Of a DNA stretch of 40,206 nt, positions 10,624 through 30,900 are shown in pieces. The DNA lies in the NCBI GenBank assembly GCA_003598085.1, contig QZKU01000117.1, positions 1 through 40,206 of the forward strand, given 5' to 3'. Under the pieces are notes generated by a model. It ran no database searches, was not told the origin of the DNA, and saw only the letters and a list, made by a program, of their open reading frames with translations. How positions within the stretch are numbered: position 1 is the stretch's first letter; each line of letters opens with the position of its first letter. The translations under genes were made by a program, and so were the position numbers. The stretch comes from Candidatus Abyssobacteria bacterium SURF_5 (GTDB lineage Bacteria > Abyssobacteria > SURF-5).

Positions 10624-11985
10624 ATGAGACACATACTTGTTATCAGTAAAGACGACGGCTTAAAGGAGCAACTCCTCCGCTCTCTGCAGGATTCACAGGC
10701 AAAAATCGACTGGGCCCGCAACTTCGATAGTGCGATGTCGCTCTCAACCGAACTGCAGTACGACGTGGCTTTGCTCGAAGTGCAGCGGTTTGATTCAGCT
10801 TCTCGCGAATTCCTCCGCGACTACCTCCAGCAGAGTCCCCAGAGCCTCCTCATTCCTGTTTCGCCCAACGCTCCATTGGACGAAGCGATGGAAGCCATTC
10901 GCGCCGGGGCCGCCGACTTTATCCACGAGCCGGCCGATGCCGCGCTCATCAAAAGCCGGATCGAACGGTGCCTCGAGAACCGGCGAATGAAAAACGAGAT
11001 CAATTTCCTGCGGCACACTCAGCCCCATATCTACAAATTCGATGATATCGTCGGCGTTTCCGCGGCGATGAAAAAGGTGTTCGCACTCCTCAATCGCGTC
11101 TCTCCCACCGATGCAACCGTCCTCATTCTCGGCGAAACAGGAACCGGCAAAGAGCTCATTGCCGGAGCCATTCATTTCAACAGTCCGCGCGCGAAAAACA
11201 GCTTCGTCAGGGTCAATTGCGCGGCCTTGCCGGAAAACCTCCTCGAAAGCGAGCTGTTCGGTCATGAGAAGGGGGCCTTCACGGGCGCTCATCGCCAGCG
11301 CGTCGGGCGCTTTGAACAAGCCGATTCAGGCACCATCTTTCTCGACGAAATCGGAGACATGGGCGCCAGCACCCAGGCCAAAATTCTGCGCGTGCTGCAG
11401 GAACACCAGTTCGAGCGCCTTGGCGGCACCCAGACTATCAGCGTCGATGTCCGCGTCATCGCAGCCACCAACAAGGACCTGTCACAATTAATGAATGAGG
11501 GAAAGTTTCGGGACGACCTCTTCTATCGCCTCAACGTCGTCACCATCGAACTTGCTCCCCTTCGAGAACGAACCGAAGATGTCGAGCCACTCGTGAACTT
11601 CTTCTTGAAAAAATATGCGGGTCAGATAAACAACCAGGTCAACGGCGTCTCCGCCGCGGCCCTCAAGACGCTGAAAGAGTATCACTGGCCGGGAAACATT
11701 CGCCAGCTTCAAAACGTAATCGAGCGCGCGGTCATCATGTGCGAGGGCAACAAGGTTCAACCCGAGCACATCGCCCTCTACGACAAAAAACCGCCCCAGA
11801 AAAAGGACATCCTGAATATCCCCGATGGCGGCGTCAAACTGGAAGAAGTCGAGCGCCAGCTCATTTGCCAGGCCCTCGAGCGAGCAGGCTGGGTCCAAAA
11901 AAACGCGGCCAAACTTCTCGGAATCAGTCCCCGCGTCATCAATTATAAGATTAAAAAGCACGATATCAGGCGGTTCCAGGAATAG
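10624..11985 (+). CDS. Sigma-54 activator with degenerate receiver domain
   Basis: The 453-residue protein has the NtrC layout. A receiver-like domain spans 1-120, an AAA+ domain follows with GETGTGKE (Walker A), the GAFTGA loop that contacts sigma-54 and FLDEIGDM (Walker B), and a Fis-type helix-turn-helix lies at the C-terminus. The receiver is abnormal: the phosphoacceptor position is Glu (E52 in LLEVQ) and the usual KP pair reads EP. It is therefore unlikely to be switched by phosphorylation and may be constitutively active or controlled by protein contact, for instance with the HDOD protein encoded just upstream. GGGGGAA precedes the ATG. Targets are unknown. Confidence 0.9.
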   Translation: MRHILVISKDDGLKEQLLRSLQDSQAKIDWARNFDSAMSLSTELQYDVALLEVQRFDSASREFLRDYLQQSPQSLLIPVSPNAPLDEAMEAIRAGAADFIHEPADAALIKSRIERCLENRRMKNEINFLRHTQPHIYKFDDIVGVSAAMKKVFALLNRVSPTDATVLILGETGTGKELIAGAIHFNSPRAKNSFVRVNCAALPENLLESELFGHEKGAFTGAHRQRVGRFEQADSGTIFLDEIGDMGASTQAKILRVLQEHQFERLGGTQTISVDVRVIAATNKDLSQLMNEGKFRDDLFYRLNVVTIELAPLRERTEDVEPLVNFFLKKYAGQINNQVNGVSAAALKTLKEYHWPGNIRQLQNVIERAVIMCEGNKVQPEHIALYDKKPPQKKDILNIPDGGVKLEEVERQLICQALERAGWVQKNAAKLLGISPRVINYKIKKHDIRRFQE

Positions 11986-14681: not shown

Positions 14682-16826
14682 TCATTTTGCCGTTACGGCG
14701 GCAAACGTGCTTTTGGCCGTCCCCGGATTCTCGGTTAGGGGAGGCCAGTCAGGCGCGTTGATCGTTCCACAGTACGCCCACCAGTCGAATATATCCGCCG
14801 GAAGATAATGCTTGGGGAATGAGATCGACGCTTGCGCCCCTCGCACTTCCATCTGAAAATCTTTTGGCGATATTTCTATTCCATCTTTGCGCGATCTATC
14901 CGACGTCTTGTTCCAACCGACGTTCCAACCGTTGCTGTCAAGGTTGAGAGAGATGAGATATTCGTAGCCGAGGCTCGATTGGCCGGTTCTTATGTCGCGG
15001 TCAATATCGGCGAAGAAGACGATGTCAATCCGTCTGTTAGCCATTTCGCCGGGTTCCGGAAAAGCCTCTGCCGTATGAATCGATAAGGTGTAACGTTCCT
15101 CACGTAATGCCGCCTCGGCCTGGAGGATGTCCAAATATCGCCGGGAAGCGTCGCCGTGCAGGTTTCCTGCGGGATCGGACACGCCGACACGCTGGGAAGC
15201 GTTTTCATCAGGGCTCGCCGGTCGTTCCACGAAGGAGTACTTTTTTCCGTCGACCACGGCGCTCTCCAGGTTGAGAACCTGCCCCGAGTTGTCGATCCTG
15301 CGCACCGGACCGATTCCTTTCGCCATCCAGACTTCAAAGGTATATATGTCTGACATCCCGCCGCCGACACTGACAAACTGAGTGAGCGAAACCAGCAAAT
15401 GCATGCATTCAAGCGGGACGCCGTTCGCCATGGTAATCGTTTCAACTTTATCGAAAACCGTGCTGCAAGCTCCCGACATCGTCGCGATCTGTACGCCTTT
15501 CAGGTCGTAAACGGGCGCATTCTGGAGCCTGGTGCTCTTGTGATAGCCCGGAGCGATTTTTCTGTCCATGACGGCTTCCTCCGTGCAGAAAACAGTGGCG
15601 ACACCATCGGGATTCTGATGCTTCAGCTGCCACCAGCCCGCCACATCGGAAGCCGCCCAAACGACAAGTCCGTCGGAATGTTCCATTCTTGCCGCCATCT
15701 TCCCGCATATCTGGTCGAATCCTGCAACACTTTGGGTGAGGATACCGCCATCGGAAGTCCTGAACACCCACTGGTCACCCACGCTCAGCGGGTGGTAATC
15801 CTGGATGTCGTAGTGATAAGCTTGAGTTTCGTTTGTCGGGGGATTAGCACTGTCGCGTTTCAACGTGACAAACCCGATGAAAAACAAGAATGTTGTCAGG
15901 CAGAGCAGACCGGCCGCATAAAAAAATGTTTTCCGGTTTGCCTGCTTTCGCTCTCTTTGCAGGAGTCTCTCCGTGTCTTCTTTGTACTTGGATTGAAAAT
16001 CACGAATGGCCTTCAAGAACGCTCGGGCGGAATCGTATCGCTTTTCCTTTTTCTTGTTCATCGACCGCGCGATAATATCGCACAACTGGCGCGGAATCTC
16101 AGGATTGAGAGCCTTGATATCGGGAGGGTCTTCATAGATGATCTTGTGCATGAGCGCCATATTGTCCGGAGCCGAAAAGGGCATTCTGCCTGTCAGCATC
16201 TCGTAGAAAACGACTCCGAGCGAATAGATATCGGTGCGCGCATCGAGCTCCTCGCCCCGGCATTGCTCCGGCGACATGTACTTGGGAGTGCCAAGAAGCG
16301 CTCCCGTCTGCGTGATCTCGGACATATCCGAAACAAGTTTTGCGAGCCCAAAATCCATCACCTTGACTCTGCCCACCTGGTCGATCATGATGTTGGAAGG
16401 CTTGATGTCGCGGTGAATGATGTTGCACTTGTGAGCATGCGCCAGCGCCGACGCGGCCTGCACCATTATCTTTAACGCCGCCGGCGGGCTCAAAAAACCT
16501 TTCCCATCCAGTATCTCCTTGAGCGACTGTCCCTTGACATATTCCATGCTGAAGAAGTGGATGCCGTCTTCCTCGCCGATGTCGTATATCTGCACGATGT
16601 TTTTGTGATCAAGCTGTGCCACGGCCAGAGCTTCCCGGCGAAATCGCTTGACGAAAGAGGCGTCGCGGCTGAGTTCGGGATACAGCGCCTTCAGGGCGAC
16701 TATGCGGTTGAGCGAGACCTGCCTGGCCTTGTAGACCATTCCCATCCCGCCCCTTCCGAGAATCTTCTCGATCTCGTAGTTGCCGAGGGTTGCCCCGGCG
16801 AGTTGACCGATATCCAATAGAGCCAA
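14682..16826 (-). CDS. Transmembrane PknB-type Ser/Thr kinase with sensor domain
   Basis: The 714-residue protein starts with a complete kinase domain (about 15-270): GRGGMG nucleotide loop, K46 in VALKAL, HRDIKPSN (catalytic D140), DFG (158-160) and the SPEQ activation-segment end. A juxtamembrane coiled stretch and one transmembrane helix (about 300-322) follow. The external part has a sensor-like domain (340-532) opening with YHPLSVGDQWVF and a second beta-rich domain. Residues 340-532 are clearly related to the secreted protein at 21007-21846. Both candidate starts are TTG; I prefer 16826 because GGAGG lies eight bases before it, over 16841 which has none. The gene is divergent from an FHA-containing sigma-54 activator, a likely phosphorylation-dependent partner. 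Confidence 0.92.
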   Translation of the reverse strand: MALLDIGQLAGATLGNYEIEKILGRGGMGMVYKARQVSLNRIVALKALYPELSRDASFVKRFRREALAVAQLDHKNIVQIYDIGEEDGIHFFSMEYVKGQSLKEILDGKGFLSPPAALKIMVQAASALAHAHKCNIIHRDIKPSNIMIDQVGRVKVMDFGLAKLVSDMSEITQTGALLGTPKYMSPEQCRGEELDARTDIYSLGVVFYEMLTGRMPFSAPDNMALMHKIIYEDPPDIKALNPEIPRQLCDIIARSMNKKKEKRYDSARAFLKAIRDFQSKYKEDTERLLQRERKQANRKTFFYAAGLLCLTTFLFFIGFVTLKRDSANPPTNETQAYHYDIQDYHPLSVGDQWVFRTSDGGILTQSVAGFDQICGKMAARMEHSDGLVVWAASDVAGWWQLKHQNPDGVATVFCTEEAVMDRKIAPGYHKSTRLQNAPVYDLKGVQIATMSGACSTVFDKVETITMANGVPLECMHLLVSLTQFVSVGGGMSDIYTFEVWMAKGIGPVRRIDNSGQVLNLESAVVDGKKYSFVERPASPDENASQRVGVSDPAGNLHGDASRRYLDILQAEAALREERYTLSIHTAEAFPEPGEMANRRIDIVFFADIDRDIRTGQSSLGYEYLISLNLDSNGWNVGWNKTSDRSRKDGIEISPKDFQMEVRGAQASISFPKHYLPADIFDWWAYCGTINAPDWPPLTENPGTAKSTFAAVTAK

Positions 16827-16875
16827 ACTCACATCCTCCAAGCGCCAGACGGTGTCTCATGTCCCGCCGCCCAAG

Positions 16876-16904: not shown

Positions 16905-16959
16905 TTGTTTGTTGATTCAACTCCTCTTCGTTGGAATGGAAATTGACAACTTGCTTTGG

Positions 16960-17007: not shown

Positions 17008-18837
17008 ATGGCGCGGTTGACCGCAATACGAGGCCCTCACAAGGGCGCGTTCTATGACTTGGAACACCCCGAAACGGTAATCGGCCGTTTGCGCACCTGC
17101 AGCATCTGTCTGCACGACGCCGCAGTTGGAAGACAGCACGCCAAAATCATCCTGCGCGGCGAAAACGCCTCCGTTGTCGACCTGAAAAGCAAGGCGGGAA
17201 TATACGTTAACGGGAGAAAAGTTGTCTCCGCCAAGCTTGCCGACGGCGACGTGATCCGCATAGGGAATTCAACATTCTCCTTCTCCACCGACCGAAGCGG
17301 GCCGCGAACCACAGAAGAGATGGTGGTGCTTGCGAGCCTCAAAGCCGAGGAGACTGATAGGGCCCGGCTGGCGCTCTCCCGGCAAGCGGCCTCGGAAAAA
17401 GGTGAACTGGCTTTCTTGTATGAGGTCGCCGACTCTCTCCTGCCCGAGACGCAGAGCGAGCGTCTGTTGCAAACGATACTCGATCTGCTGTCACGCCGAT
17501 TTCAACCGGCGGGCGCTCATATCTTCCTTGTGAATTCGAACACCAAAGAACTGGAACTGCATGCTTCCCGGTCCGACTCCGAAGTGCCGCCGATCAGCAG
17601 GACAATGGTCGGACAATCGTACGATAATCGGGAAAGCCTGCTGGTTCAGAACGCCCACGCAGACCCGCGTTTTTCCGACGCGCAAAGTGTCCGCCTGTAT
17701 CAGATTCGTTCAGCAGTCTGTGTGCCGCTGGGCCGGCTCGGCGTCATCAACCTCTGCCACACTTCCACGCGCCGCTCATTCACTCATACCGACTTGACAT
17801 CGCTGTCCATCATTGCGGCTCTCGCCTCGCCTGCTCTCGAAAAAGCCCTGCATCTCGAGACGGTCGAACAGAAAGTGCAGGAACTAACAAGCATCGTGAA
17901 AGGCCAGTACAATATCGTCGGGAAAAGCGCCGCCATCAGAAACGTCTTTGAGCTTATCGGGCGCGCCGCGAAAACCAACTCGACCGTCCTGATCCTGGGC
18001 GAGAGCGGAACCGGGAAGGAATTGGTTGCGCGCGCCTTGCACTTCAACAGCGAGCGAAGCGGGAGACCGTTTGTGGCGGTCAATTGCGCCTCGCTGGCGG
18101 AAAGCCTGGTCGAAAGCGAATTGTTCGGCCATGAAAAAGGCGCTTTTACCGGGGCGGTCGAAGCCCGGCCGGGGAAATTCGAGCAGGCCGACGGCGGCAC
18201 CCTGTTCCTTGACGAAATCGGCGAGTTGAGGCCGGCGGTGCAGGCGAAACTCCTGCGGGTGCTCGAGGACGGCGTCGTGCAGCGGATCGGCAGCGTGAAA
18301 GACCGCAAGGTTAATGTGCGTCTGCTCGCTGCCAGCAACCGCGACTTGCGGGCGGACGCCGCCAGGGGTATCTTCCGGCAGGACCTGCTCTACAGGCTCG
18401 AAGTCATCCAGATACCGATTCCGCCTCTCCGGCGCCGCGTTGAAGACATACCGATGCTCATCGAACATTTCATCGAAATGTTTCGCAACAAATCGAACCG
18501 CTGGGTACGGGGCGTCTCTGATGAGGCGCTGCATTCGATGAAGTCGTATTCGTGGCCGGGCAACGTGCGCGAATTGAAGAACGTTATTGAAAGGTGCATG
18601 GTCCTCGGAAGGCACGACCGAATCGAAAAGGAGGACGTGCTCCAATTCGGACTAAGCGAATTTGTCGCCCCTCACGCTCAACCAACCAGAACACTCAGTG
18701 AAATCGAGAGGGAGCACATCATGAACGTGCTCCGACAGTGCGGCGGCCGTAAAGGAGAGGCTGCGAAACTCCTGGGCATCGACCGCAAGACGCTCTTCCG
18801 CAAACTCGAATCATTCGGGTCGGAGCAGAATATCTGA
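17008..18837 (+). CDS. FHA-GAF sigma-54-dependent activator with Fis HTH
   Basis: The 609-residue regulator combines four modules. An FHA domain (2-95; GR at 26-27, GRQH at 41-44, YVNG) reads phosphothreonine. A GAF domain (about 135-290) may bind a small ligand. An AAA+ domain (about 305-545) has [14 protein letters not shown] and [10 protein letters not shown]-terminal Fis-type HTH ([22 protein letters not shown]) completes it. FHA in place of a receiver implies control by Ser/Thr phosphorylation, and a kinase gene lies divergent next door. I chose the ATG at 17008 because the promoter lies at 16960 and the FHA fold begins there. Likely targets are the two sigma-54 promoters at 19041 and 23389, each with a matching palindrome pair. 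Confidence 0.92.
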
Positions 18838-18916: not shown

Positions 18917-18955
18917 GAGGCATCACGCCCCATTTCGCATCGGGCATTCTGCCCC
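18917..18955. promoter_or_regulatory. Enhancer (UAS) A: tandem palindromes for a sigma-54 activator
   Basis: Two related inverted repeats lie 24 bp apart centre to centre: GGCATCACGCC (18919-18929) and GGGCATTCTGCCC (18942-18954, perfect 5-bp arms). They begin 80 bases after the activator gene and sit 93 bp (second centre) upstream of the -24 element at 19041. The same pair and the same spacing recur at 23265-23303. The flanks are also alike, up to GAAATC about ten bases to the right. Confidence 0.75.
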
Positions 18956-19040
18956 AAAAACCGGAAATCTTGTCTCCTGATTTGCATCAGAAGACTTATA
19001 AGTTGCAGCTTCTCCAGTAGTTACATCAGTCGCAGGACTA

Positions 19041-19056
19041 TGGCAAACTGTTTGCT
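19041..19056 (+). promoter_or_regulatory. Sigma-54 promoter A
   Basis: TGGCAAACTGTTTGCT has the -24 GG and -12 GC separated by exactly ten bases and closely matches the TGGCAC-N5-TTGCW consensus. Transcription would start near 19067 and run into the FG-GAP gene at 19184 with a leader of about 117 bases. It stands 93 bp from the enhancer palindromes. The rest of the 18838-19183 gap holds no gene that I can support. Confidence 0.8.
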
Positions 19057-19183
19057 CTTTCCGTCAATTGCTATTGCCCGCCAGGTGTACGCATGAAATG
19101 AAGCATCCGGTTCAAATGTCGCGGAAATGTACGAGGAGCCCAGCTGGCTCGCAACAAGGATTGTTCTAAAGAGGGAGGCTATT

Positions 19184-20818
19184 ATGAGAAGGCTGCTGGT
19201 TTCAACGGTTTTTGCGTTGGCTGTCCTGTTGTATCAGACATTCGCTCATGGCGACCCTGTCCTCAAGGCCGGCTGGCCGGTGAAGGCAAATGTTCACATT
19301 TTCGGCTCGTGTGTCACCGGTGACATAGTCGGTGACGCCAACAAAGAAGTTATTTGCCTGTCGGCTAACCCGGGCTGGTACGACTGGTCCGCCTCCGTTT
19401 ATGCATGGGATAGATATGGTTCTCCCTTGCCGGGTTTTCCCAAGTATCTCGGGGCAACAGGATGGACTAACTTCGGTCAGGGTTCTCCCGCACTGGCTGA
19501 TATCGACGGTGACGGATCACTTGAGATAATCGGTTCGGGCGGCGGAAAAATCTACATTCTGAACGGTGATGGAACCTATCAATCAGGATGGCCAATCAAC
19601 TTAAATACAAATTCCTCGCCTGCAATCAGCGACCTCGATGGAAATGGGAACCTGGACCTCGTCGTCGGCGGGCATGACGGCAAAGTATATGCGTGGAACA
19701 GCTCCGGTACAAGCCTTGCCGGTTGGCCGGTCACAACCGCAGGCGAGGTAATATTTGCAACGCCCGCGATCGCCGATATTGATGAAGACGGCAAGCCGGA
19801 GGTTGTCATCGGTTCAGCCGACGACTTTGTCTACGTTAGAAACGGCGACGGAACACCGGTGACCGGTTGGCCGAAATCTGCCGGCGCGGATATCAGATCC
19901 TCCGCCGCGGTCGGCGATATCGACGATGACGGCGAACTGGAGATCGTGGTCGGTACGAACGGCAATCGGGTCTATGCCTGGGACGCGGACGGGACTCTCG
20001 TCAGCGGCTGGCCCGTATCCACAGGAGGCGCGGTGGAATCGTCACCCGCGCTTGGCGATATCGACGGCGACGCCTCGCTCGAGGTCGTTGTCGGATGTTT
20101 GGATGACAAAGTCTACGCGTGGAACGGCGATGGTACTGCGGTAATCGGCTGGCCCGTGGCGGCCGGCGGCGACGTCTATTCGTCTCCCGGCCTCGTGGAC
20201 CTCGACGGCGACAACGCCCTCGAAGTCGCTGTCGGCGTTTACACCGGGACGGTTCGCATTTGGAACGGTGACGGCGGGCTGTTATATGACCTTTCCGAGC
20301 CGGGTGCTATTCTCTATAGCTCTCCCGCATTTAATGATATCGACAATGACGGCAGCCTCGAAATGGCTATCGGCGACGAAAGCGGCTGGGTCTACTGCTG
20401 GGACTTTGGGGCGGGCACATATGATCCCGCTTTGCTCGCTTGGCCGATGTTCCATCACGATTCATGGCATACCGGCCTGTACGAGGGCGGCTCTCTCTGG
20501 TTCATCATCTATCCGGAAAAGCCGTCATATCGTGCGGGAGAAACGCTTAAGGTTTACGTACAGGTCATGAACCCCGGCGCCGGTATTCCCGTCGAAGTCA
20601 AAACCTGGATGAAGGACCCGGACGGCTACTTGCAGTCGTTGAAGAAACTGCCCGAAATCGACTTGCCCGCCGTTTTCACGAGTACCTTTCTCATCTATAA
20701 ACACACGTTCGTAGCCGGCGACCCTGACGGAATATACACGCTGGGCGCGGCTCTGGAGGACCCGATCACGGTGGAGGTCTTCACGCGGGACACCGCCGAC
20801 TTCACCTTTACGCCATAA
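19184..20818 (+). CDS. Secreted FG-GAP/VCBS repeat (beta-propeller) protein
   Basis: The 544-residue protein has a Sec signal peptide and about seven repeats of the type DIDGDGxLEIVVGxxDGKVYAWNxDG-GWP. These are FG-GAP repeats with calcium-binding DxDxDG loops that fold into an integrin-alpha-like beta-propeller. A C-terminal beta-sandwich follows (IIYPEKPSYRAGETLKVYVQVMN). Such proteins are surface or secreted adhesins or ligand binders. The ATG at 19184 has GGGAGG five bases upstream and begins the signal peptide. It is the first gene after sigma-54 promoter A, so it is probably activated by the kinase/FHA regulator pair. No catalytic residues are evident. Confidence 0.88.
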   Translation: MRRLLVSTVFALAVLLYQTFAHGDPVLKAGWPVKANVHIFGSCVTGDIVGDANKEVICLSANPGWYDWSASVYAWDRYGSPLPGFPKYLGATGWTNFGQGSPALADIDGDGSLEIIGSGGGKIYILNGDGTYQSGWPINLNTNSSPAISDLDGNGNLDLVVGGHDGKVYAWNSSGTSLAGWPVTTAGEVIFATPAIADIDEDGKPEVVIGSADDFVYVRNGDGTPVTGWPKSAGADIRSSAAVGDIDDDGELEIVVGTNGNRVYAWDADGTLVSGWPVSTGGAVESSPALGDIDGDASLEVVVGCLDDKVYAWNGDGTAVIGWPVAAGGDVYSSPGLVDLDGDNALEVAVGVYTGTVRIWNGDGGLLYDLSEPGAILYSSPAFNDIDNDGSLEMAIGDESGWVYCWDFGAGTYDPALLAWPMFHHDSWHTGLYEGGSLWFIIYPEKPSYRAGETLKVYVQVMNPGAGIPVEVKTWMKDPDGYLQSLKKLPEIDLPAVFTSTFLIYKHTFVAGDPDGIYTLGAALEDPITVEVFTRDTADFTFTP

Positions 20819-20885
20819 AGCCTGCCTGGGCGAAAGAAACTGTGTCCGATAGAAGGCTCCTTTCACTGTCGGAAGCGCGCGGATG

Positions 20886-20921
20886 CGGAGAGGACGCATC
20901 AACAAGGAATGCTCCTCTCCG
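20886..20921 (+). other. Long stable hairpin between operon genes
   Basis: CGGAGAGGA (20886-20894) pairs perfectly with TCCTCTCCG (20913-20921). GCAT/ATGC extends the stem inside after one bulged base, leaving a nine-base loop. There is no T tract after it, so it is not a standard terminator. It may stabilise or process the message between the FG-GAP gene and the next gene and set their ratio. Confidence 0.5.
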
Positions 20922-21006
20922 TAATCCCCGGCGGCTATTCGATTTCATCTGAAGCCGGTTTGAAACCCTCGGCTCACTCGAGGGCACAACAAAAGGAGGA
21001 GAAATC

Positions 21007-21846
21007 ATGAAAAGACTGATAACCGTCGTTGCGACAATTGCGTTTCTCGCGCTTACCGCCTCGCCCGGACTCTCCGTTCCGCTCGACATCACGAGCGCCG
21101 GCATGGAGGTAACCGGCCCCACCACATTCACCATGCACAACGGACTCGTTGGGCCACATCTGTATTGGGCGGCCTTCCAGTGGAACCCATTGAAGCTGGC
21201 TTTCCAGATGACGGGGAGTTACGGCGTCGAAGACCCGACGTTCAAGGCCATGGAATATTATCCGCTCGAAGTCGGCAACACGTGGACATACGCGCGTTCC
21301 GGCGGGGGCACATTGACGATAACCGTGACGGGAACCGACGAAATCTGCGGCGTGACCTGTATGCGGATGGAAAATTCGGACGGAAAGATCGATTGGTACG
21401 TGAGCGACGATACCGGCGTGTGGTTGGTCCAGACTCAGAATCCGGACTACTCGTACGTCGTTTTTTGCCCGGTTCAGATATGCAACCCATACGGATATAT
21501 CGGATTCTCGAAGCTCACTCCGTATGAGGACGCGCCGATCTATATGTCGGGCGGCATCCCGATTGGAAGCATGACCGGCTACATGAGCTACACCGGAAAC
21601 GGCCTCGAAACAGTTGCCACCCCGGCCGGCACGTTCCCTGATTGTGTCCGCGCTAACCTGGCTCATTCCTATACGACAACCTGGCACACGGCCGTCATGA
21701 ACGACGAACTGTGGTTCGCCAAGGGGATCGGCCTGGTAAAAAATATAACCATGACGGCGACGGCGCTCGACGGCTCACTCGTCGAGAGCTTCACCGAAGT
21801 GCTCATCCTCGAGAGCGCGACGGTCGGAGGCGTCTCCTATCCGTAG
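21007..21846 (+). CDS. Secreted homologue of the kinase sensor domain
   Basis: The 279-residue product has a signal peptide (about 1-23) and then a domain (82-279) starting EYYPLEVGNTWTY. It aligns along its length with residues 340-532 of the Ser/Thr kinase encoded at 14682-16826: DEICG against DQICG, RMENSDG against RMEHSDG, QTQNPD against KHQNPD, APIY against APVY, AKGIGLVKN against AKGIGPVRR, and LESATVGG against LESAVVDG. It is therefore a soluble version of the kinase's external domain, possibly competing for or presenting its ligand. AAAGGAGGAG precedes the ATG. It lies in the promoter A gene run. The fold and ligand are not known to me. Confidence 0.85.
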   Translation: MKRLITVVATIAFLALTASPGLSVPLDITSAGMEVTGPTTFTMHNGLVGPHLYWAAFQWNPLKLAFQMTGSYGVEDPTFKAMEYYPLEVGNTWTYARSGGGTLTITVTGTDEICGVTCMRMENSDGKIDWYVSDDTGVWLVQTQNPDYSYVVFCPVQICNPYGYIGFSKLTPYEDAPIYMSGGIPIGSMTGYMSYTGNGLETVATPAGTFPDCVRANLAHSYTTTWHTAVMNDELWFAKGIGLVKNITMTATALDGSLVESFTEVLILESATVGGVSYP

Positions 21847-21897
21847 AGAGACTCAAAGAAACATGGGGAAACCGTGATTCGAAAGGAAGGGAACAAA

Positions 21898-22773
21898 ATG
21901 AAACCTCGAAACCTGTTTCTTGCGTTTGTGCCAGCGGCGATGGTTTTGCTGGCCTCAAGCGTTTCGGCCGCAGATTGGTCCTGTCCGACGGATTCCGTGA
22001 AGGCGTGGGCAATGTGCGTCATGGAGAGACTGGACGCGTTGGAGACCGAAAACGCCGCCCTGCAGGCCAGAGTGGACGAATTAGAAGGCAAGCTCGCCTG
22101 TGTGAGTATGGAAGCCGGAGAAATTGACGGTCTCGCCGGTCCGCACCTCATCTTTACAGGTGTCAATATCCATATCAGGAGCGGTAGCGGCTCGACGATC
22201 AATATGCCATGGCCCGATCCTCCGTCAGGTCTTGGAAACCTGATCATAGGATATAACGAAGAGCCAGATGGTCTTTTGGCGGGTGAAAGGGGCGGCTCCC
22301 ATAACCTGGTTGTAGGACCCGAACACCGCTACTCGAGCTATGGAGGCCTGATTGCCGGGTTCCATAATACTTCTTCCTGGTTGTACACGTCGGTAACAGG
22401 CGGAGAAAACAACAGGGCGGGCGGCTATGCGGCCAGCGTGAGTGGCGGGTTCAATAACGATTCCGCCGGCTGGGCTACCAGCGTAAGCGGCGGGTCGTAC
22501 AACAAGGCCGCCGGCTCCGGAGCCGGATTCGCGGCGTCAGTCAGCGGCGGCAGCTACAATCGGGCTGCAGGCGACAATTCGAGCGTCAGCGGTGGATGGG
22601 ACAACACGGCCGGCGCAGTCCATTCCACCGTCAGTGGCGGCAATTCCAACACGGCAAGCGGCCTCTCAGCAAGCGTCAGCGGGGGCGGGTCGAATGTCGC
22701 GGCGCATGATGTCTCCACCGTGAGCGGAGGATGGGGCACCACGACTTCCTCGGATTTCGATCACGTGCCCTGA
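21898..22773 (+). CDS. Secreted YadA-head-like SVSGG repeat protein
   Basis: The 291-residue product has a signal peptide (MKPRNLFLAFVPAAMVLLASS), a short heptad coiled coil (ERLDALETENAALQARVDELE) and then eight repeats of about 14-15 residues, SVSGGxxNxAAG, like the heads of trimeric autotransporter adhesins. It ends abruptly at SDFDHVP without a membrane anchor or the usual closing domain, so it may be a secreted fragment or a 3'-truncated gene. The ATG at 21898 has AAGGAAGGG upstream. It follows the sensor-like gene closely. The stand-alone HTH gene begins 132 bases after its stop, where the duplicated regulator segment starts. Confidence 0.8.
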   Translation: MKPRNLFLAFVPAAMVLLASSVSAADWSCPTDSVKAWAMCVMERLDALETENAALQARVDELEGKLACVSMEAGEIDGLAGPHLIFTGVNIHIRSGSGSTINMPWPDPPSGLGNLIIGYNEEPDGLLAGERGGSHNLVVGPEHRYSSYGGLIAGFHNTSSWLYTSVTGGENNRAGGYAASVSGGFNNDSAGWATSVSGGSYNKAAGSGAGFAASVSGGSYNRAAGDNSSVSGGWDNTAGAVHSTVSGGNSNTASGLSASVSGGGSNVAAHDVSTVSGGWGTTTSSDFDHVP

Positions 22774-22904
22774 TCCTGGGAACAGCGACAGAGAAGGAGA
22801 TCGCGGCTCGCGAGCATCTTTCGGCGATCAGGCTCATCGCTCATAAGGGAAAATCAACGCCGGCGCATCAGGTTCGCCGGACGAGGAGAAGAAGGGAGGC
22901 GAAA

Positions 22905-23120
22905 ATGAGCGATCAGGATGTGGTGGAGTTTCGACTGAGGCAAGCAGATGCCGCGGCCGATCAGCGAATAAAAACGCTCGATGAAATCGAGAAGGAACAT
23001 ATCATGAGCGTGCTCGAAAAATGCGGTGGCCGAAAAGGAGAGGCCGCAAAACTCCTTGGCATCGACCGCAAAACCCTCTTTCGAAAAGTGAAGGCGCTGA
23101 AACCGGAGCAGAATATTTGA
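22905..23120 (+). CDS. Stand-alone Fis-type HTH protein, partial paralogue of the FHA activator
   Basis: The 71-residue product consists of little more than a Fis-type DNA-binding domain. From DVVEFRL to the end it matches the C-terminus of the FHA activator (DVLQFGL ... [21 protein letters not shown] ... EQNI), and the DNA is alike too. It lacks FHA, GAF and AAA+ domains, so it cannot activate sigma-54. The ATG has GGGAGG five bases upstream, an excellent ribosome binding site, which argues that it is expressed rather than debris. It probably binds the same palindromes as the activator and could act as a competitor. It sits just upstream of enhancer B. The alternative is a leftover of a duplication. 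Confidence 0.78.
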   Translation: MSDQDVVEFRLRQADAAADQRIKTLDEIEKEHIMSVLEKCGGRKGEAAKLLGIDRKTLFRKVKALKPEQNI

Positions 23121-23264
23121 TCCGCCATTCTATCTCTGCACCATGAATCGGAATTGCCTTTCCTTTAAATCTGCCTTCGGCCAAATGCGTCGAAGAGAAC
23201 ATCGAGTGGGAAGTGCGGATGCGCCTCCCAGAATTTCAATCGAAAATCGAGAATTTAGAGTTGT

Positions 23265-23303
23265 GAGGCATCCTGCCCCATCTCGCTTTGGGCATTCCGC
23301 CCC
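23265..23303. promoter_or_regulatory. Enhancer (UAS) B: second tandem palindrome pair
   Basis: GGCATCCTGCC (23267-23277) and GGGCATTCCGCCC (23290-23302) are 24 bp apart centre to centre, as in enhancer A. The second centre is again 93 bp upstream of a sigma-54 -24 element (23389). The 53-base block from GAGGCAT to GAAATC is largely the same in both copies, while the 85 bases before each promoter differ. Confidence 0.75.
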
Positions 23304-23388
23304 ATTCGCCAGAAATCCCGGCCGCGCTATCCGGCCGACCGTCTGCCAAATCTTTATGTATCAACTGCTTATGTCTGATAGCCATTAG

Positions 23389-23404
23389 TGGCAATTCAAT
23401 TGCT
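23389..23404 (+). promoter_or_regulatory. Sigma-54 promoter B
   Basis: TGGCAATTCAATTGCT has GG and GC ten bases apart, an excellent -24/-12 match. Transcription would start near 23415, a few tens of bases before the small membrane protein gene at 23450. The rest of the 23121-23449 gap holds enhancer B and no gene that I can support. Confidence 0.8.
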
Positions 23405-23449
23405 CTGTCTGTCGACTGGACCCTCGACGGGAAAAGAGGAATGAGGACG

Positions 23450-23596
23450 ATGGCGCGCGGCCTTTTCAAAACCGGAAATAAGAAGATTCTCCTGTGGAAG
23501 AAGACCGTTGGCCTCTCGTGGGCGGAAATCTGGCTCTTGGTCCTCGTTATCATCATGGCGGGCGCCATCGTGGCCTTTTTGGCGGTGGCACGGTAA
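23450..23596 (+). CDS. Small single-pass membrane protein (48 aa)
   Basis: The product is a short basic cytoplasmic segment (ARGLFKTGNKKILLWKKT) followed by one transmembrane helix (about 25-45, EIWLLVLVIIMAGAIVAFLAV). GAGGA lies nine bases upstream of this ATG; an ATG at 23441 would add three residues but sits almost on the ribosome binding site. It is the first gene after sigma-54 promoter B. No family is recognised. Small single-pass proteins in regulated operons often modulate a membrane partner, such as the kinase or the membrane ATPase here, but this is inference. Confidence 0.6.
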   Translation: MARGLFKTGNKKILLWKKTVGLSWAEIWLLVLVIIMAGAIVAFLAVAR

Positions 23597-23715
23597 GAGG
23601 TTGTTCGGCAGGTGTATTTGTGAAACTGTCTGCATTAAAGGCGACGCCCTCATCAGTTCGGCGGCCGAGTCCAACATGGGCAAGTAATGGCGCGGGACTC
23701 AACACCACGTGGAAA

Positions 23716-23748
23716 GGGGCGGGTATGCGCCTCGCGCATCCCCGCTCC
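23716..23748 (+). other. Long imperfect hairpin between operon B genes
   Basis: GGGGCGGGTATGCGC (23716-23730) and GCGCATCCCCGCTCC (23734-23748) form a 15-position stem with two non-Watson-Crick positions and a three-base loop. CTTTTTG follows only about 13 bases later, so it could be a leaky terminator or a processing site. It would lower expression of downstream genes relative to the small membrane protein. The rest of 23597-23850 shows no gene. Confidence 0.45.
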
Positions 23749-23780
23749 GCCGCTGATTCGCCTTTTTGCGCTTCATTTTA

Positions 23781-23786
23781 TATAAT
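23781..23786 (+). promoter_or_regulatory. Possible internal -10 box
   Basis: TATAAT lies 65 bases before the ATG at 23851. The hexamer TTCGCC 18 bases upstream is a weak -35. It may give basal sigma-70 transcription of the later genes independent of promoter B. Confidence 0.3.
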
Positions 23787-23850
23787 GACGGAAAAGCGCG
23801 AACCGATCAAAAATTTCACACCCGAAACGATTCGAGAGCACGCGGGACTC

Positions 23851-25452
23851 ATGAGACTCTATGCCCTGATCGCAGCGTCATTCCTCTGCCTCATTTCCGT
23901 CGCCGCTGCGGATGAAAACTTCACGCAAGACATCTATGTGCCCGCCACATCCGAAGGCGTAGAATTCATTGCCCCTGCAGATGGCTCCTATCGCTTCACG
24001 ATAACCGGCGGCGCCGCTCAGGCGTGCCCGCCGAGTGCGGCGCCCGGACATCCGGACTGGCACGGCTGGAATACCATGGTGCTTATTTACAAGAACCGTC
24101 ATGCTGAATGGGGCGGAGGCCCTTTTGCGCCCGACAACCCTCATCCTGCCAATTGGGATGCCGCTGTCGGAAACATCGGCATGCAACCCACCCGTGAGGC
24201 TGCGGAAAGTGCGGGGAAAGGCCTTTCCTGCCAAATGTTCCTGGGAAAGAACGAGTATGCAAGACTGCTTGTCCATGATTCCCGGGGATTCTTTCATGAT
24301 AATTCCGGAGGAGTCCATCTCTTGATCTCGCTCGTCGGTGATGCAACGCAGGCCGGCGCCGGCTCGGCGCAAGCGAATGACTGCGACAGCTTCGATCTTC
24401 TGGGCGAAGGCAAGGAAATTCTTGAAACGGCTTCAGGGACAGAGGTTTTTAGATACGGGTGGCAGAACAACGAATACAGAATATTGGAGGCAATTGAACG
24501 CTTTCATTACGAACCGGGAACCCGCGAGGCGTTCGGTCAGCAGTGGGACTTCGCGCCGTTGGGCGTCCTTCATACAACCGCGGAACCGGCACAATTCGGA
24601 TCGACAATGCTTGTCTGGAATTCCGAACGCTATGGCGAGGCCAAGGGCCGCGTTTTATGCGATCAAACCGCCTGGGAACGGTCAACAGGGCCCAAACCCG
24701 GCGACGTCTTCAGACTGACTGGAACCGTTGATCAGCCGTTTTCCGCTCCTTTCATCCCCGATACCTCGCTATACGACTTCGAATGGACCCTCTTTCAAAC
24801 CGCTACAGACGTGAAAAAAGCCTCCGATCGCGACCACGGCGAATATGTTTCAAAGATCACCTGGGAATGGAACGGGATACTCTATGCGAAACCGAAGACC
24901 GCATTCGCGAATCGCGGCGCAAGTCCCCCTTTGCGACCCTGTTTTTACACAGGCTTCGACTCGCCGAATCTCGATGAATGGCAAATACCTTCGGGCAGTT
25001 GGACCGTTTCCGACGGCGTCCTCGCTTCCAGCGGCTTCTTCGGCGAGGAAATAATCCTTACCGGCAAAACGTGGAAAAATTGCAGAATATGCTTTCGCAT
25101 GAGGTTCGCCTCCGGCATCGATGATTTCTGGGTCCAATTTCGCAGAAATTTCCACGGAGACCCGCCGGGATACTCCTGCTACCAAATCGACGGCGGCACG
25201 GGCAAGTTCCGCTATCAGAACATCAGAGAAAAATATCGGGACATCAGCAAGATGATTTTAGCGCCGAAGGGCGACCAGAGATGGCATACCTTTGAGCTGG
25301 TTATAAGAGATGCTTCCGCCGAATGCCTCATAGACGGAAAACCGATTGTGTCTGCACAGAGATGCCCAATTGATGCCGGCCAGATCGGTTTTCGAACCTT
25401 AAATACACGCGTTGAAGTCGATTACGTGCGCGTCGAAGATATCAGCAACTGA
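23851..25452 (+). CDS. Secreted protein with C-terminal LamG-like module
   Basis: The 533-residue product begins with a clear signal peptide (MRLYALIAASFLCLISVAAA). The N-terminal half resembles no family I can name. The C-terminal ~170 residues (FYTGFDSPNLDEWQIPSGSW ... VEVDYVRVEDI) look like a concanavalin/3-keto-disaccharide hydrolase-type beta-sandwich. A second copy occurs in the membrane protein at 25981-27918 (FDSLRLSEWL ... VEIDDLHIEHL). I chose this ATG because it starts the signal peptide and lies after the hairpin; upstream in-frame codons have no exported-protein character. It may bind carbohydrate or a cell-wall polymer. It lies in the promoter B gene run. Confidence 0.78.
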   Translation: MRLYALIAASFLCLISVAAADENFTQDIYVPATSEGVEFIAPADGSYRFTITGGAAQACPPSAAPGHPDWHGWNTMVLIYKNRHAEWGGGPFAPDNPHPANWDAAVGNIGMQPTREAAESAGKGLSCQMFLGKNEYARLLVHDSRGFFHDNSGGVHLLISLVGDATQAGAGSAQANDCDSFDLLGEGKEILETASGTEVFRYGWQNNEYRILEAIERFHYEPGTREAFGQQWDFAPLGVLHTTAEPAQFGSTMLVWNSERYGEAKGRVLCDQTAWERSTGPKPGDVFRLTGTVDQPFSAPFIPDTSLYDFEWTLFQTATDVKKASDRDHGEYVSKITWEWNGILYAKPKTAFANRGASPPLRPCFYTGFDSPNLDEWQIPSGSWTVSDGVLASSGFFGEEIILTGKTWKNCRICFRMRFASGIDDFWVQFRRNFHGDPPGYSCYQIDGGTGKFRYQNIREKYRDISKMILAPKGDQRWHTFELVIRDASAECLIDGKPIVSAQRCPIDAGQIGFRTLNTRVEVDYVRVEDISN

Positions 25453-25473
25453 TTTTCTAAAGGAGGCTCAGTT

Positions 25474-25947
25474 ATGAAAGCGTGCGGAAAAGGATTGACC
25501 TTCTTGTTTCTTCTTCTCGTGATATCCATTGCTCCATCAGGAACAGCATCGGCCCAATCGGCTGACCAGGCCGCGATTAACCGTGTGCTCGATCAACTCG
25601 AGGAGGCCTACGTCAACGAGAACATGGGCCTGCTTTCCTCGCTGATCTCTGATTCAGGTTTTATCCTGCTTATCAAGAAACCCGCCGACCCTTCAATGGC
25701 TCTTGTTCTGAACAAAGCGCAGCTTCTTGACGGAACGGCAAAACGGTGGGCGGACGAGGACTTCCTCGAACACAAGCACGTCAACCGCCGAATCATCATA
25801 GATGGACCCATAGCGAAGTCCATCAGCGTCATGAAAGAACAAACAAAAGCGCGCAAAAAGATGGAAAGCCCTATCTTTCATATATTGGCTAAAGAGGATA
25901 CGCAGTGGCGTCTGGTCTTCAGCGCCTCCGCCCTCGGAGATGAATGA
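25474..25947 (+). CDS. Secreted NTF2/SnoaL-like protein
   Basis: The 157-residue product has a signal peptide ending near TASAQ. The body fits the SnoaL/DUF4440 cone fold: a long first helix (QAAINRVLDQLEEAYVNENMGLLSSLISD), a middle RRIIIDGPIAKSISVMKEQ strand pair and a closing WRLVFSASAL strand. Such exported members usually bind a small ligand or a protein; no catalytic set is visible. AAAGGAGG precedes the ATG. It is 21 bases after the previous gene and 33 bases before the next, so it is part of the same operon. Confidence 0.7.
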   Translation: MKACGKGLTFLFLLLVISIAPSGTASAQSADQAAINRVLDQLEEAYVNENMGLLSSLISDSGFILLIKKPADPSMALVLNKAQLLDGTAKRWADEDFLEHKHVNRRIIIDGPIAKSISVMKEQTKARKKMESPIFHILAKEDTQWRLVFSASALGDE

Positions 25948-25980
25948 CCCGTTCCTGAAGGCAATCAGACGGAGAAAACC

Positions 25981-27918
25981 ATGATGCAAACCTGCACGCG
26001 ATGCAAAGAAGAATTTGACGAAAAGCCCCACCTCGACAAGCAGGGGCGGCCATTCTGCGACGACTGTTATGAGGAACTGCAGGCGCGAAAGCGGTCGAGA
26101 TTGCAGCAAAAACCAGCAACGTCACACCCGAACCCGGGAGACAATCGGCGGGCGCCGGGTCTGTTCCGGAGCAAGAGAACTCTCGCAATACTGTTGACGT
26201 GCGCCGTCCTGCTCGCCGGAACCGCATGGCTGCTGCTGGCGGAGCCCGGCGAGTTTGTGATCCGGGCAAAAGACTTTCCGATGGCGCCCGGCCTCAGATG
26301 GACGTATACGGCAACCGCCAATGAATCTCCCGACCTTATGTTCAACGTCGTCGTGCAGGCGGAGAGCGTGGAAGGCAACCCCGGCCTGATCCGGATGGAC
26401 TACTTCAGCGAGGCGGGAGGAACACGACAAACCTATTGGCGTAAGATGGAAAACGCGGTGGCTGAATACGCGGAGAAGGACGAAACCTCGCTGGTTCGCA
26501 AGTTCGAGTTCCCCGCCCGGGTGGGCTCGGAATGGAACATGAGCTTTCCCGGGTTCGACTTGGTCTACGGGGTTGATTCCGTGCGAGTCTCAGCGACTGC
26601 CGTCGAGGAAGTGACCGTTCCCTTTGGGACCCTTCGTTGCTTGAGGATGGAAGCTGATGTAAGTCAGATCGAGCAGGTGAAAAGCCTCACGCAGTGGCTG
26701 GCCCCGGGCGTCGGATTCGTAAGACAAGAATCGGTTACCGATCAAAATTCGGGCACTGTCTTGCTGACTGATTTTCGAAAAACGGATGAAAGCTTCGCCC
26801 GCACGATAACGCCGCCGGAGTATCATTCGAACTTTGACTCCCTTCGCCTGAGCGAGTGGCTGGTTCATCCGCCAAGCCATTGGACGGCGCGAGAAGGAGT
26901 CCTGCGCTCAAACGGCGAAGGGGGTGAGACCCTCACGCTGAAACCATACATCTGGCGAGATTGCAGAGTCAGGTTTCGCGCAAGACTTCTTTCCGGCGGC
27001 GACATGTGGCTCAGCTTCCGCGGCAATTTCCTGAGTGATCCGCGGGGCTATTCCTATGTTCAACTCGATAACGGCACGCTGAAAATCAGGCATAACAACT
27101 GGCAAAACTGGCAGAACATCAGCGACAATGTTCCCTTTCAGATGGACGACACATGGCGAGAGGTGGAATGCCTCGTAAACGGCCCAGATGTGGAATGCCT
27201 TGTGGACGGCCGACCCGTGGTGAAGACAAAAAAGTGCCCGTCGCAGATCGGCATGGTCGGATTCCGCGCGCTGAACACAAAGGTGGAGATCGATGACCTG
27301 CATATCGAGCATCTCGAAGGCGCTCCACTTCGGAAAGCGGATGAAACGCGTGACTATTTCCCCCTCGCAATCGGAAGTGAGTGGCGCTACCGCGGTCAGG
27401 ACGGCAAGGAAATCATTACGCGGTGCGCGGGCAACACGCAGTTGAACGGAAGGGAAGTGATCGTGCGCGAAGATGTTGACGGAGTGAAACTGTACTTCGA
27501 GAAAAGACCCGACGGCGTATATCTGGCAGGCGTTCTCGTGCCCGTTGTCTCTCCCGAAATAGCCGCCCTGGACCCGCCGTCTCTCTATATCAGTCCTTCT
27601 CCGAAAGTGGGCGACCGCTGGCATCATGACGGAAAGATGCACGCGGCGGACGGAGTGCGCGACGAGATCGTTGATTTCGAGATCCTGAGTTCGGAAACAG
27701 TAACCGTTCCCGCCGGTATTTTCGATAACTGCCTGAGATTGCATGTCAAAGCATTTACCACAATAGATGGCAAGCGTCAGATATACGAGGACGTCGAGGA
27801 ATGGTTCGCGCCGAACGTTGGGATGATCAAATTCTATTACGCAAAGGCCCCCTGGGAAGAACATGCAAGCAACACTTACAAATATGAATTAGTGTCTTTT
27901 GAAATAGAGGGAAGTTAG
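25981..27918 (+). CDS. Membrane protein with zinc-ribbon N-terminus and external sensor-like domains
   Basis: The 645-residue protein starts with a treble-clef-like CxxC (C5, C8) and CxxC (C26, C29) that should bind zinc in the cytoplasm. One transmembrane helix (about 67-87) follows. Outside there is a first domain (FPMAPGLRWTYT ... EEVTVPFGTLRCLRM ... WLAPGVGFV), a LamG-like module shared with the protein at 23851-25452, and a second domain of the first type (YFPLAIGSEWRY ... VTVPAGIFDNCLRLHV ... WFAPNVGMIKF). The PL-x(2)-G-x(2)-W opening also occurs in the kinase sensor and its secreted homologue. I infer an envelope receptor or scaffold in the same system. Translation starts at MMQT, with CGGAGA upstream. 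Confidence 0.75.
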   Translation: MMQTCTRCKEEFDEKPHLDKQGRPFCDDCYEELQARKRSRLQQKPATSHPNPGDNRRAPGLFRSKRTLAILLTCAVLLAGTAWLLLAEPGEFVIRAKDFPMAPGLRWTYTATANESPDLMFNVVVQAESVEGNPGLIRMDYFSEAGGTRQTYWRKMENAVAEYAEKDETSLVRKFEFPARVGSEWNMSFPGFDLVYGVDSVRVSATAVEEVTVPFGTLRCLRMEADVSQIEQVKSLTQWLAPGVGFVRQESVTDQNSGTVLLTDFRKTDESFARTITPPEYHSNFDSLRLSEWLVHPPSHWTAREGVLRSNGEGGETLTLKPYIWRDCRVRFRARLLSGGDMWLSFRGNFLSDPRGYSYVQLDNGTLKIRHNNWQNWQNISDNVPFQMDDTWREVECLVNGPDVECLVDGRPVVKTKKCPSQIGMVGFRALNTKVEIDDLHIEHLEGAPLRKADETRDYFPLAIGSEWRYRGQDGKEIITRCAGNTQLNGREVIVREDVDGVKLYFEKRPDGVYLAGVLVPVVSPEIAALDPPSLYISPSPKVGDRWHHDGKMHAADGVRDEIVDFEILSSETVTVPAGIFDNCLRLHVKAFTTIDGKRQIYEDVEEWFAPNVGMIKFYYAKAPWEEHASNTYKYELVSFEIEGS

Positions 27919-27968
27919 GAGCCATCGACAGGAATTGCCGTCTGGCCGATTAAAGAGGATGCCGACCA

Positions 27969-30900
27969 TTGGACAGGATAGATGCCCTGAAAAACCGCAT
28001 TTCAGAAACGCCCGGCGATCCCATCTTGCACTACGAACTGGGGAAACTGCTCTATCAAAAAAATGATTTCGATGGCGCGGTCCAGGTCCTGAAGAGATCG
28101 ATCGAGTTGGCGCCCGAAAAAATTAATGTTCATCTCCTTCTGGCCAAGGCCTATGCAAAAAATCACAACTATTTCAATGCCAAGGCGCAATATCAGAAAA
28201 TCCTCTCGCTCGATCCATCCAACCAGATGGCCCATATGAATCTTGGTTTCGTTTATGAGCTTTACCTCAAAGATGCGCCCCGCGCCCTGGCGCATTACCA
28301 AAAATATGTCGAGTTGGGCGGTAAGGACCCGCGCATCATTCGGCGCGTCGAGGAGCGCGCCGAAGATCTGAAAAAGGGGAGAATTTTCTCGAAACCGTCC
28401 AGCCGTCAAGAAGAACGGAAACAATCAGGCATTGCCGCAGTCGCGCAAGAAAAGGCGGCCTCTGAAACGTTGCGCGAAGTGTATCGGCTGCGGGACCGGG
28501 CGACAGCGGCTATCAGCGAGAACAGAGACTCCCTCAAAAGGGGCCTCTCTGCATTGGCCGTGTTCGTCATCCTCCTTCAGTGTCTTCGTGCTTTCCCCGT
28601 CGCGCCCCCCTACATTCACCTCTTTGCGGCACTGGCGCTTGCGGGTCTGACGGCACTGCACGCTTCGTTCGGACTGGCCGCCGGCCTGACGGTTATGTTT
28701 TTCCCGATCGCCTTCCACAGCCCTTTGCTGGGCTATCTCTACGCCGGCGGCGCCTTCCTGTTGTTCGTCTCATATGGCGCCCAATATCCGGGAAAAGCCC
28801 TTGCCGTCCTGCTCATGCCGCAATTGCTGAAATTGAATCTCGCATATTCTGTCCCTCTGGGGGCCGCTATCCTGATGGGCGCCGGCGCAGGCGCGGGACT
28901 CGGGGCGGTGGCCTCAATCGCGGGGTTGGGGTACATGGTCGCCGGAAATATCCATCAACTGGGGCCGCTGGCCCTAAACCTTGCGGGCGCACCCACGATG
29001 GCCTCCTTGCCGCCTGTCGCCGACCCCGATTTCTTCCTCAAGTTTCAATGGATCAAGTCGATGGCTTCACCGGAAGTGAGCCGCGCCTTTCAAACGTTCT
29101 TCCATGCGCTGTATCCGGCGCTCCTGCATCCCCCGATTGTTTTTCTGCAAATCGGCGCCTGGGGAATTGCCGGTTATGCGGCCGGTAAACTCTACCAGAA
29201 ACGCAGTCCCCTGTTCCTCGCATCCGCCCTCGGGGCGGCAGCGTCCGTTTTTCTCCTGCAGGCTGTCATCGTGGAAAGCCTCCCGGGAGACCATATCTTT
29301 TCTTCCTGGATGCTGCTCAAGTCACTCGTCTTTTCGGTTGTGCTCGTCGCCTTGCTTGTGTTCTTTAAGGTCACCGTGCAGGAAAAGGAATTCAGTGAAG
29401 AATTGGGTGACATTAGGTGGGACTCGATCGGCGGACTTGAAGATGTGAAACGGGAAATCCAGGCCGTGACCCAGCACCAGTTCGAGCGTCGTTCTTCACG
29501 GCTGGCGAAGAAATACGACCTGAAGGCGACCAAAGGCATTCTCTTCTATGGACCTCCCGGGTGCGGCAAGACCATGTTCGCCAAGGTGCTCGCCAAGGAA
29601 GTCGGCGCGTCATTCTACTCGGTGAAAGGCTCCGACTTCCGGTCGATGTGGTACGGAGAAACCGAGAAAAACTTGACCAAAATCTTCGAGCAGGCCCGGC
29701 AAAACTCGCCTTCAGTCATTTTCTTCGACGAGATCGACAACATGCTGGGCAAGCGCGGCGAGACCATGACCAGCGACTCCCCGGAAAAAAGGATTGTCGC
29801 GATTTTTCTCTCAGAAATGGACGGGGTCAAATCGATTCGAAACGTGCTCGTGGTCGGAGCGACGAATGAACCCGATCTGATAGACCCGGCGGCCCTGCGC
29901 CCCGGCCGGTTCGACAAACTCATCTACATCCCGCTGCCGGATGCGAAAGGCAGGGAGAAGATTTTCCGGGTCCATCTCAAGAAAAAACCGCTCGCGGAAG
30001 GAATCGATTTCCCCAAGCTTGCCCGGCTGACCGAACGGTTTTCGGGCGCCGACATAGCGGACGTTTGCTCGAAAGTCGCCGAACAGGCCATGCAAGAGAG
30101 CCTGCGTACGGGCAAGAAGATAGATATCGACATGACTGCGCTCCAACGGCAGATCAAATCCTCCAAGCCCTCGGTTTCCCTGAAGCTTCTTCGGAAATAT
30201 GAGGAACTGCAGGAAAAATACAGCCGCAGGACGATCAAATCCGAAACCGGCGCCGCTGAGGAGAAACAGAGATACTCGTGGAATCAGGTCGGAGGCCTTG
30301 AGCAGGTGAAAAAGGAACTGATCGAAGCGGTCGAGACGCCATTGACGAAACCGCAACTGTACGAGAAATACAAAATCAAACCCCCAAAAGGAATCCTTCT
30401 CTATGGGCCTCCCGGCTGTGGAAAGACGCTGATGGCAAAGGTCGTCGCCGGCCAGTGCGGCGCCCACTTCTTGTCGGTCGACCTGAAAAAGGAAACCACC
30501 GACGGCATCAAGGAATGGTTTATCCGGGCAAGGGAAAACAAGCCAAGCGTCCTCTTCTTTGACGAGATCGATTCGATCGCAGCTTCCAGAGATTTCGGCA
30601 TGATGGCCGGTCACGGCCTTGTGACGCAACTGCTGGTGGAACTCGACGGAATGGAGGACTTGAAGCAGGTGGTAATCATCGCTGCAACCAACAAACCCGA
30701 TCATCTCGACAGCGCGCTCATGCGGCCCGGCCGGTTCGACCGACTGATCTACATTCCTCCGCCCGACGAGTCCTCAAGATTGGAGATACTGAGAATCCAT
30801 CTGCAAGACAAGCCGCTCACCGACGACGTGGATTTGGGGACAATCGCCCGACAGACCGATAACTATTCCGGCGCCGACCTCGGCGCGCTCTGTTACGAAG

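Follow-up and report, generated by a model that had tools for sequence, protein, structure and literature searches.

The two sigma-54-type promoter blocks in a 40,206-nt stretch of DNA from Candidatus Abyssobacteria bacterium SURF_5 (the window, which spans an entire contig of the 5.10-Mb genome) are best explained as a single local sigma-54 circuit under the control of the adjacent FHA-GAF activator. The second block (block B) would have arisen by duplication from the first (block A), and the copy of the activator's helix-turn-helix (HTH) domain that came with it would have been kept as a gene whose product may modulate the circuit. We assign this combined reading a probability of roughly 0.7.

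Results

Two sigma-54 blocks with a common enhancer pair

Each block consists of two enhancer dyads followed by a -24/-12 promoter, all on the forward strand. In block A, dyad A1 (GAGGC-ATCAC-GCCCC, 18917–18931, centre 18924; GGCATCACGCCCC at 18919) and dyad A2 (CGGGC-ATTCT-GCCCC, 18941–18955, centre 18948; GGCATTCTGCCCC at 18943) precede promoter A (TGGCAAACTGTTTGC, 19041–19055). Block B is built alike, with dyad B1 (GAGGC-ATCCT-GCCCC, 23265–23279, centre 23272; GGCATCCTGCCCC at 23267), dyad B2 (TGGGC-ATTCC-GCCCC, 23289–23303, centre 23296; GGCATTCCGCCCC at 23291) and promoter B (TGGCAATTCAATTGC, 23389–23403). Both promoters are exact matches to the consensus TGGCA-N6-TTGC, with GG and GC 10 bp apart, and are well supported by their sequence as sigma-54 promoters. 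The genome encodes sigma-54 itself (rpoN; one Sigma54_CBD match, 3e-60, in a 500-aa frame).

The dyad centres lie 24 bp apart within each block, and in both blocks 93 bp separate the centre of the second dyad from the first base of the -24 element, just as a preliminary description of this DNA had claimed. The palindromes that it gave as GGCAT/GCCCC are present at the 24-bp distance; the dyads are better described as a 15-bp 5-5-5 element, (G/C/T)RGGC-N5-GCCCC. This geometry of 5-bp half-sites around a 5-bp centre fits dimers of Fis/NtrC-type HTH domains, a comparable case being the G-N13-C of NinH (PMC7166090).

Genome-wide distribution of the enhancer pair

A genome-wide search for the two-palindrome pattern with an 8–14 bp gap returned exactly two matches in 5.1 Mb, blocks A and B, and none for a reversed control pattern; about 7e-6 dyad pairs at 24 bp are expected from base composition. 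Exact single dyad sites are found nine times in the genome versus about eight expected from base composition, and four of these nine are the dyads of the two blocks. With three mismatches allowed, no further convincing pair was found genome-wide, and the additional matches resemble those of the control. Strict sigma-54 consensus sites number 91 in the genome, against 35 for a reversed control pattern. The surroundings of the other 89 were scanned with a dyad PWM, its motif built from the four related sites; the dyad pair is absent upstream of all of them, and the best PWM scores follow the shuffled null.

The preliminary description had considered that the palindromes might be a dispersed repeat unrelated to sigma-54 promoters. 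We reject this alternative because the pair occurs at only two places in the 5.1-Mb genome, both times at a sigma-54 promoter. A larger regulon was rejected as well: the lone high-scoring site, GGCAACATGCCCC, lies between two divergent promoters on contig C145 and is unpaired. Since the dyad pair is unique to blocks A and B, the regulon of the dyad appears to be confined to two operons, as far as a motif derived from four related sites can tell.

Two further loci are other sigma-54 circuits in the same genome. Each has a pair of strict sigma-54 promoters in divergent orientation, separated by about 300 bp that contain different palindromes, around 488–554 and 668 in one locus (L228; contig C145:44224-45330) and at 541–562 in the other (L151; contig C15:10158-11257).

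The adjacent activator and a divergent kinase

The gene at 17008–18837 (forward strand) encodes a sigma-54 enhancer-binding protein of FHA-GAF-AAA+-Fis HTH architecture (Pfam FHA and GAF; Sigma54_activat, 7e-68; HTH_8, 1e-13). Counted from the ATG at 17008 the protein has 609 aa; the longest ORF begins with a TTG at 16909. Its assignment as an enhancer-binding protein follows from a Sigma54_activat AAA+ domain with an intact GAFTGA and from a C-terminal Fis-type HTH; GESGTGKE and GTLFLDEI are also in the sequence. The gene ends about 78–80 bp before dyad A1. Together, adjacency, the uniqueness of the dyad pair and the dyad geometry argue strongly that this is the protein that binds the dyads.

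Another Fis-type activator of the genome could bind them instead, because the genome has 30 HTH_8 matches, and two more activators are encoded in the window (10624–11985 and 35795–37210). The site pairs, however, are found only beside the FHA activator and beside the copy of its HTH, and the copied HTH has kept the same recognition segment (see below). We consider control by one of these other proteins improbable.

A Ser/Thr protein kinase gene (14682–16841, reverse strand; Pfam Pkinase, 7e-58) is divergent from the activator gene, and its product is predicted to span the membrane once and putatively carries an extracytoplasmic domain. FHA domains bind phosphothreonine, which makes the kinase a candidate input to the activator and suggests that kinase-FHA coupling possibly acts upstream of it.

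A search of two genomes of the same family gave no activator orthologue; the best match reached about 30% over the FHA-GAF part. Nor was an orthologous locus found, 80 public loci yielding only distant relatives; all conclusions therefore rest on one genome.

Two adjacent predicted operons

Gene order predicts an operon 1 at 19184–23120 and an operon 2 at 23441–31052, with all genes on the forward strand. The first gene after promoter A (19184–20818) encodes a predicted secreted FG-GAP beta-propeller protein (signal-peptide-like N-terminus; FG-GAP_3, 4e-30). It is followed by a gene for a predicted secreted DUF3108-like protein (21007–21846; Pfam DUF3108_like, 4e-7), by one for a predicted secreted protein with short SVSGG..N repeats (21898–22773; ORF from 21874 or 21898, signal-peptide-like start) and by the 71-aa HTH gene treated below (22905–23120). 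No family match was found for the 21898–22773 product; its repeats are reminiscent of trimeric-adhesin head repeats. The extent of operon 1 is uncertain because of internal gaps of 189 and 132 bp, and a terminator scan between the operons gave fewer matches than in shuffles.

Directly after promoter B, operon 2 begins with a gene for a 51-aa putative single-membrane-span protein (23441–23596; GAGG before the ATG), for which no family was found. The genes that follow encode a predicted secreted protein with a 3-keto-disaccharide-hydrolase-like domain (23785–25452; Pfam PF06439, 1e-8), a small protein with a signal-peptide-like N-terminus and no family (25474–25947), a protein that combines DUF3108-like domains with a 3-keto-disaccharide-hydrolase-like domain by profile match (25981–27918) and has paralogues in the 21007 and 23785 products, and lastly a 1027-aa protein (27969–31052). 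The last has an unusual composition, in which TPR, predicted membrane segments and two CDC48-type AAA+ ATPase domains are fused. The co-regulated set of about ten genes proposed in the preliminary description is plausible in the form of two adjacent sets, with a count of about nine.

The C-terminal half of the kinase is 34.6% identical to the 21007–21846 product over about 200 aa (E about 1e-31), and the similarity of its putative extracytoplasmic half to the 25981–27918 product is weaker. A DUF3108-like domain is common to the putative external half of the kinase, the 21007–21846 product and part of the 25981–27918 product. Putative sensor and putative target products hence appear to be related in sequence.

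Elsewhere in the window, the reverse strand encodes a deoxyhypusine-synthase-family protein, here in a bacterium, at 221–1288 (NCBIfam scores below the equivalog cut-offs) and a protein at 38325–40205 in which four putative metal-binding motifs of the MopE type occur.

A partial duplication links the blocks

Local alignment is continuous from the last codons of the activator gene across its HTH, both dyads and promoter A, and ends about 25 bases beyond the promoter; the partner tract runs from 22891 to about 23430. Block B is accordingly well supported, at the level of sequence comparison, as a diverged partial duplication of activator 3' end, enhancer pair and promoter. Other pieces of the activator were looked for upstream of the 71-aa HTH gene and none were found. 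Because block B is such a duplicate, the two blocks are not independent, and their equal 93-bp spacing is inherited. The earlier view of the blocks as co-regulated through a common enhancer pair holds; their relation by descent, and the duplicated stand-alone HTH gene, had been overlooked.

The spacer between dyad 2 and promoter has kept its length and diverged in sequence, as was also noted before: it measures 85 bases in both blocks, and ungapped comparison matches 31 of 83 bases versus 20.9 expected by shuffling (P about 0.008). Spacer homology is nevertheless weak, since the alignment test over 85 bases gives P of only 0.04–0.12, depending on gap cost. The segment between stop codon and first dyad has 78 bases in block A and 143 in block B, with no detectable similarity. 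Exact retention of the spacer length beside a neighbour that went from 78 to 143 bases is compatible with a length constraint.

These same lengths could be taken to mean that the distance from enhancer to promoter was selected for helical phasing of the loop, as the preliminary description had suggested. This proposal is not supported by our analysis, and we regard it as unlikely. Phasing is not inferable from only two cases that are related by descent, and the genome has no third such promoter. At 10.5 bp per turn, moreover, 93 bp make 8.9 turns and 24 bp make 2.3, neither of them whole, and a zero net change in length could be due to chance.

An exact match to the E. coli-type IHF consensus (TATCAACTGCTTA, 23359–23371) lies in the spacer of block B, and four HU/IHF-family genes are present in the genome. 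IHF-assisted looping was rejected as an explanation: the exact consensus is found in the block B spacer only, and the count of matches to this E. coli-type consensus in the window is the chance expectation.

The copied HTH as a stand-alone gene

The last gene of predicted operon 1 (22905–23120, forward strand) encodes a 71-aa Fis/NtrC-type HTH protein, an HTH_8 domain (1e-14) without an AAA+ domain. It is a paralogue of the activator C-terminus, with 63% identity to the activator tail, and in a tree of 80 HTH sequences it is the sister of the activator HTH (support 0.87). Its predicted model (single sequence, mean pLDDT 86) resembles the DNA-binding domains of ZraR and NtrC4 as well as Fis. 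We considered and rejected a Fis orthologue, given the sister relation to the adjacent activator's HTH and a best PDB sequence match to ZraR. Of 91 HTH_8 matches in three genomes of the family, no other lies in a short frame: this one has 136 aa and the next smallest 244 aa. A few short HTH_8 frames occur in other phyla. A Shine-Dalgarno-like GGGAGG lies just 5' of the ATG, where the homologous region begins.

The main rival to a competitor role for this protein is an ordinary duplication that brought the second operon under the same control, with the 71-aa ORF left as a role-less, decaying remnant and the spacing simply inherited. In line with this, the homology tract covers exactly the activator 3' end and the target promoter, and gene-end fragments are common by-products of duplication. 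A selection test over the whole HTH core (39 codons; dN about 0.09 and dS 0.7–0.9 between copy and activator) is not decisive, as neutrality gives P about 0.21 under the most lenient assumption, that all amino-acid changes fell on the copy's branch. Decay fits less well with the 22-residue recognition segment, which is identical to that of the activator at 22 of 22 positions despite nine nucleotide differences, all silent (P about 0.004 if half of the nine were neutral on the copy's branch). It also fits less well with a frame that is open, with no stop codon, with the GGGAGG that precedes its ATG and with the lack of any other activator remnant upstream. A remnant is a serious possibility on this evidence, albeit one that we lean against.

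Discussion

In the single local circuit that we favour, the Ser/Thr kinase possibly activates the 17008–18837 protein via its FHA domain. From the pair of 15-bp dyads that precedes either promoter, the bound activator would reach sigma-54 RNA polymerase by looping, at 19041 as at 23389, and switch on two neighbouring operons whose products are mostly exported proteins. Block B would have been formed when activator 3' end, enhancer pair and promoter were partially duplicated, the copied HTH being retained as a 71-aa Fis-like gene at the predicted end of operon 1. Since that gene is predicted to be the last in operon 1, its product would be made when the circuit is on. The 71-aa protein may be an HTH-only modulator that binds these dyads as well; we hypothesize that it is a competitor at the same enhancers, the simplest such role, and that it would exert negative feedback.

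A stronger form of this hypothesis holds that the activator gave rise, in place, to an HTH-only anti-activator, so that a tail made from operon 1 competes at both enhancers and closes a negative feedback loop, which would make the locus an extant counterpart of the origin proposed for Fis. We offer it tentatively and think it doubtful as a whole. No natural HTH-only competitor of an enhancer-binding protein was found in the literature with the terms tried, which is weak evidence of absence.

Promoters, activator and paired enhancers all belong to known types; the unusual element is an in-place duplication that appears to have freed the HTH of an activator as a gene. Such an event suggests how a sigma-54 regulon could expand: when the promoter unit that is copied overlaps the end of the activator gene, a second operon would come under control. 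A free DNA-binding domain of the same specificity would be a by-product of such copying. If the 71-aa protein does act as a competitor, the locus would provide a testable model, in a living lineage, of the descent of Fis-like proteins from NtrC-like activators.

Comparison with known systems

The activator resembles those of the NtrC/ZraR type in its AAA+ domain with GAFTGA, its Fis-type HTH and its putative paired 15-bp dyads around 90–120 bp upstream of a -24/-12 promoter. It differs from them in that FHA and GAF domains replace the receiver. The NtrC consensus is GCACC-N5-GGTGC, whereas the dyad here is RGGC-N5-GCCCC.

Ser/Thr kinases are the presumed partners of the FHA enhancer-binding proteins of Myxococcus xanthus, and the present system has in common with these an FHA domain on a sigma-54 activator. 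Here, in contrast, a GAF domain intervenes. The kinase gene lies next door in divergent orientation, and the putative external half of the kinase has a relative among the putative target products. Enhancer-binding proteins with FHA domains are known from M. xanthus (Jelsbak et al. 2005, cited in PMC12288465).

An origin of Fis from an HTH of NtrC has been proposed (Morett and Bork 1998, cited in PMC7166090). The site of phage lambda NinH, G-N13-C, is related to the Fis consensus (PMC7166090). Like Fis and NinH, the 71-aa protein is small and HTH-only, has the same fold and is derived from or related to the C-terminus of an enhancer-binding protein. It differs from Fis in being without the extra N-terminal part and in having no known role in recombination. 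Unlike either, its gene is a local copy that sits beside its parent and the parent's putative sites, with the recognition segment unchanged, and by analogy the freed HTH may represent a local counterpart of the proposed transition from NtrC to Fis.
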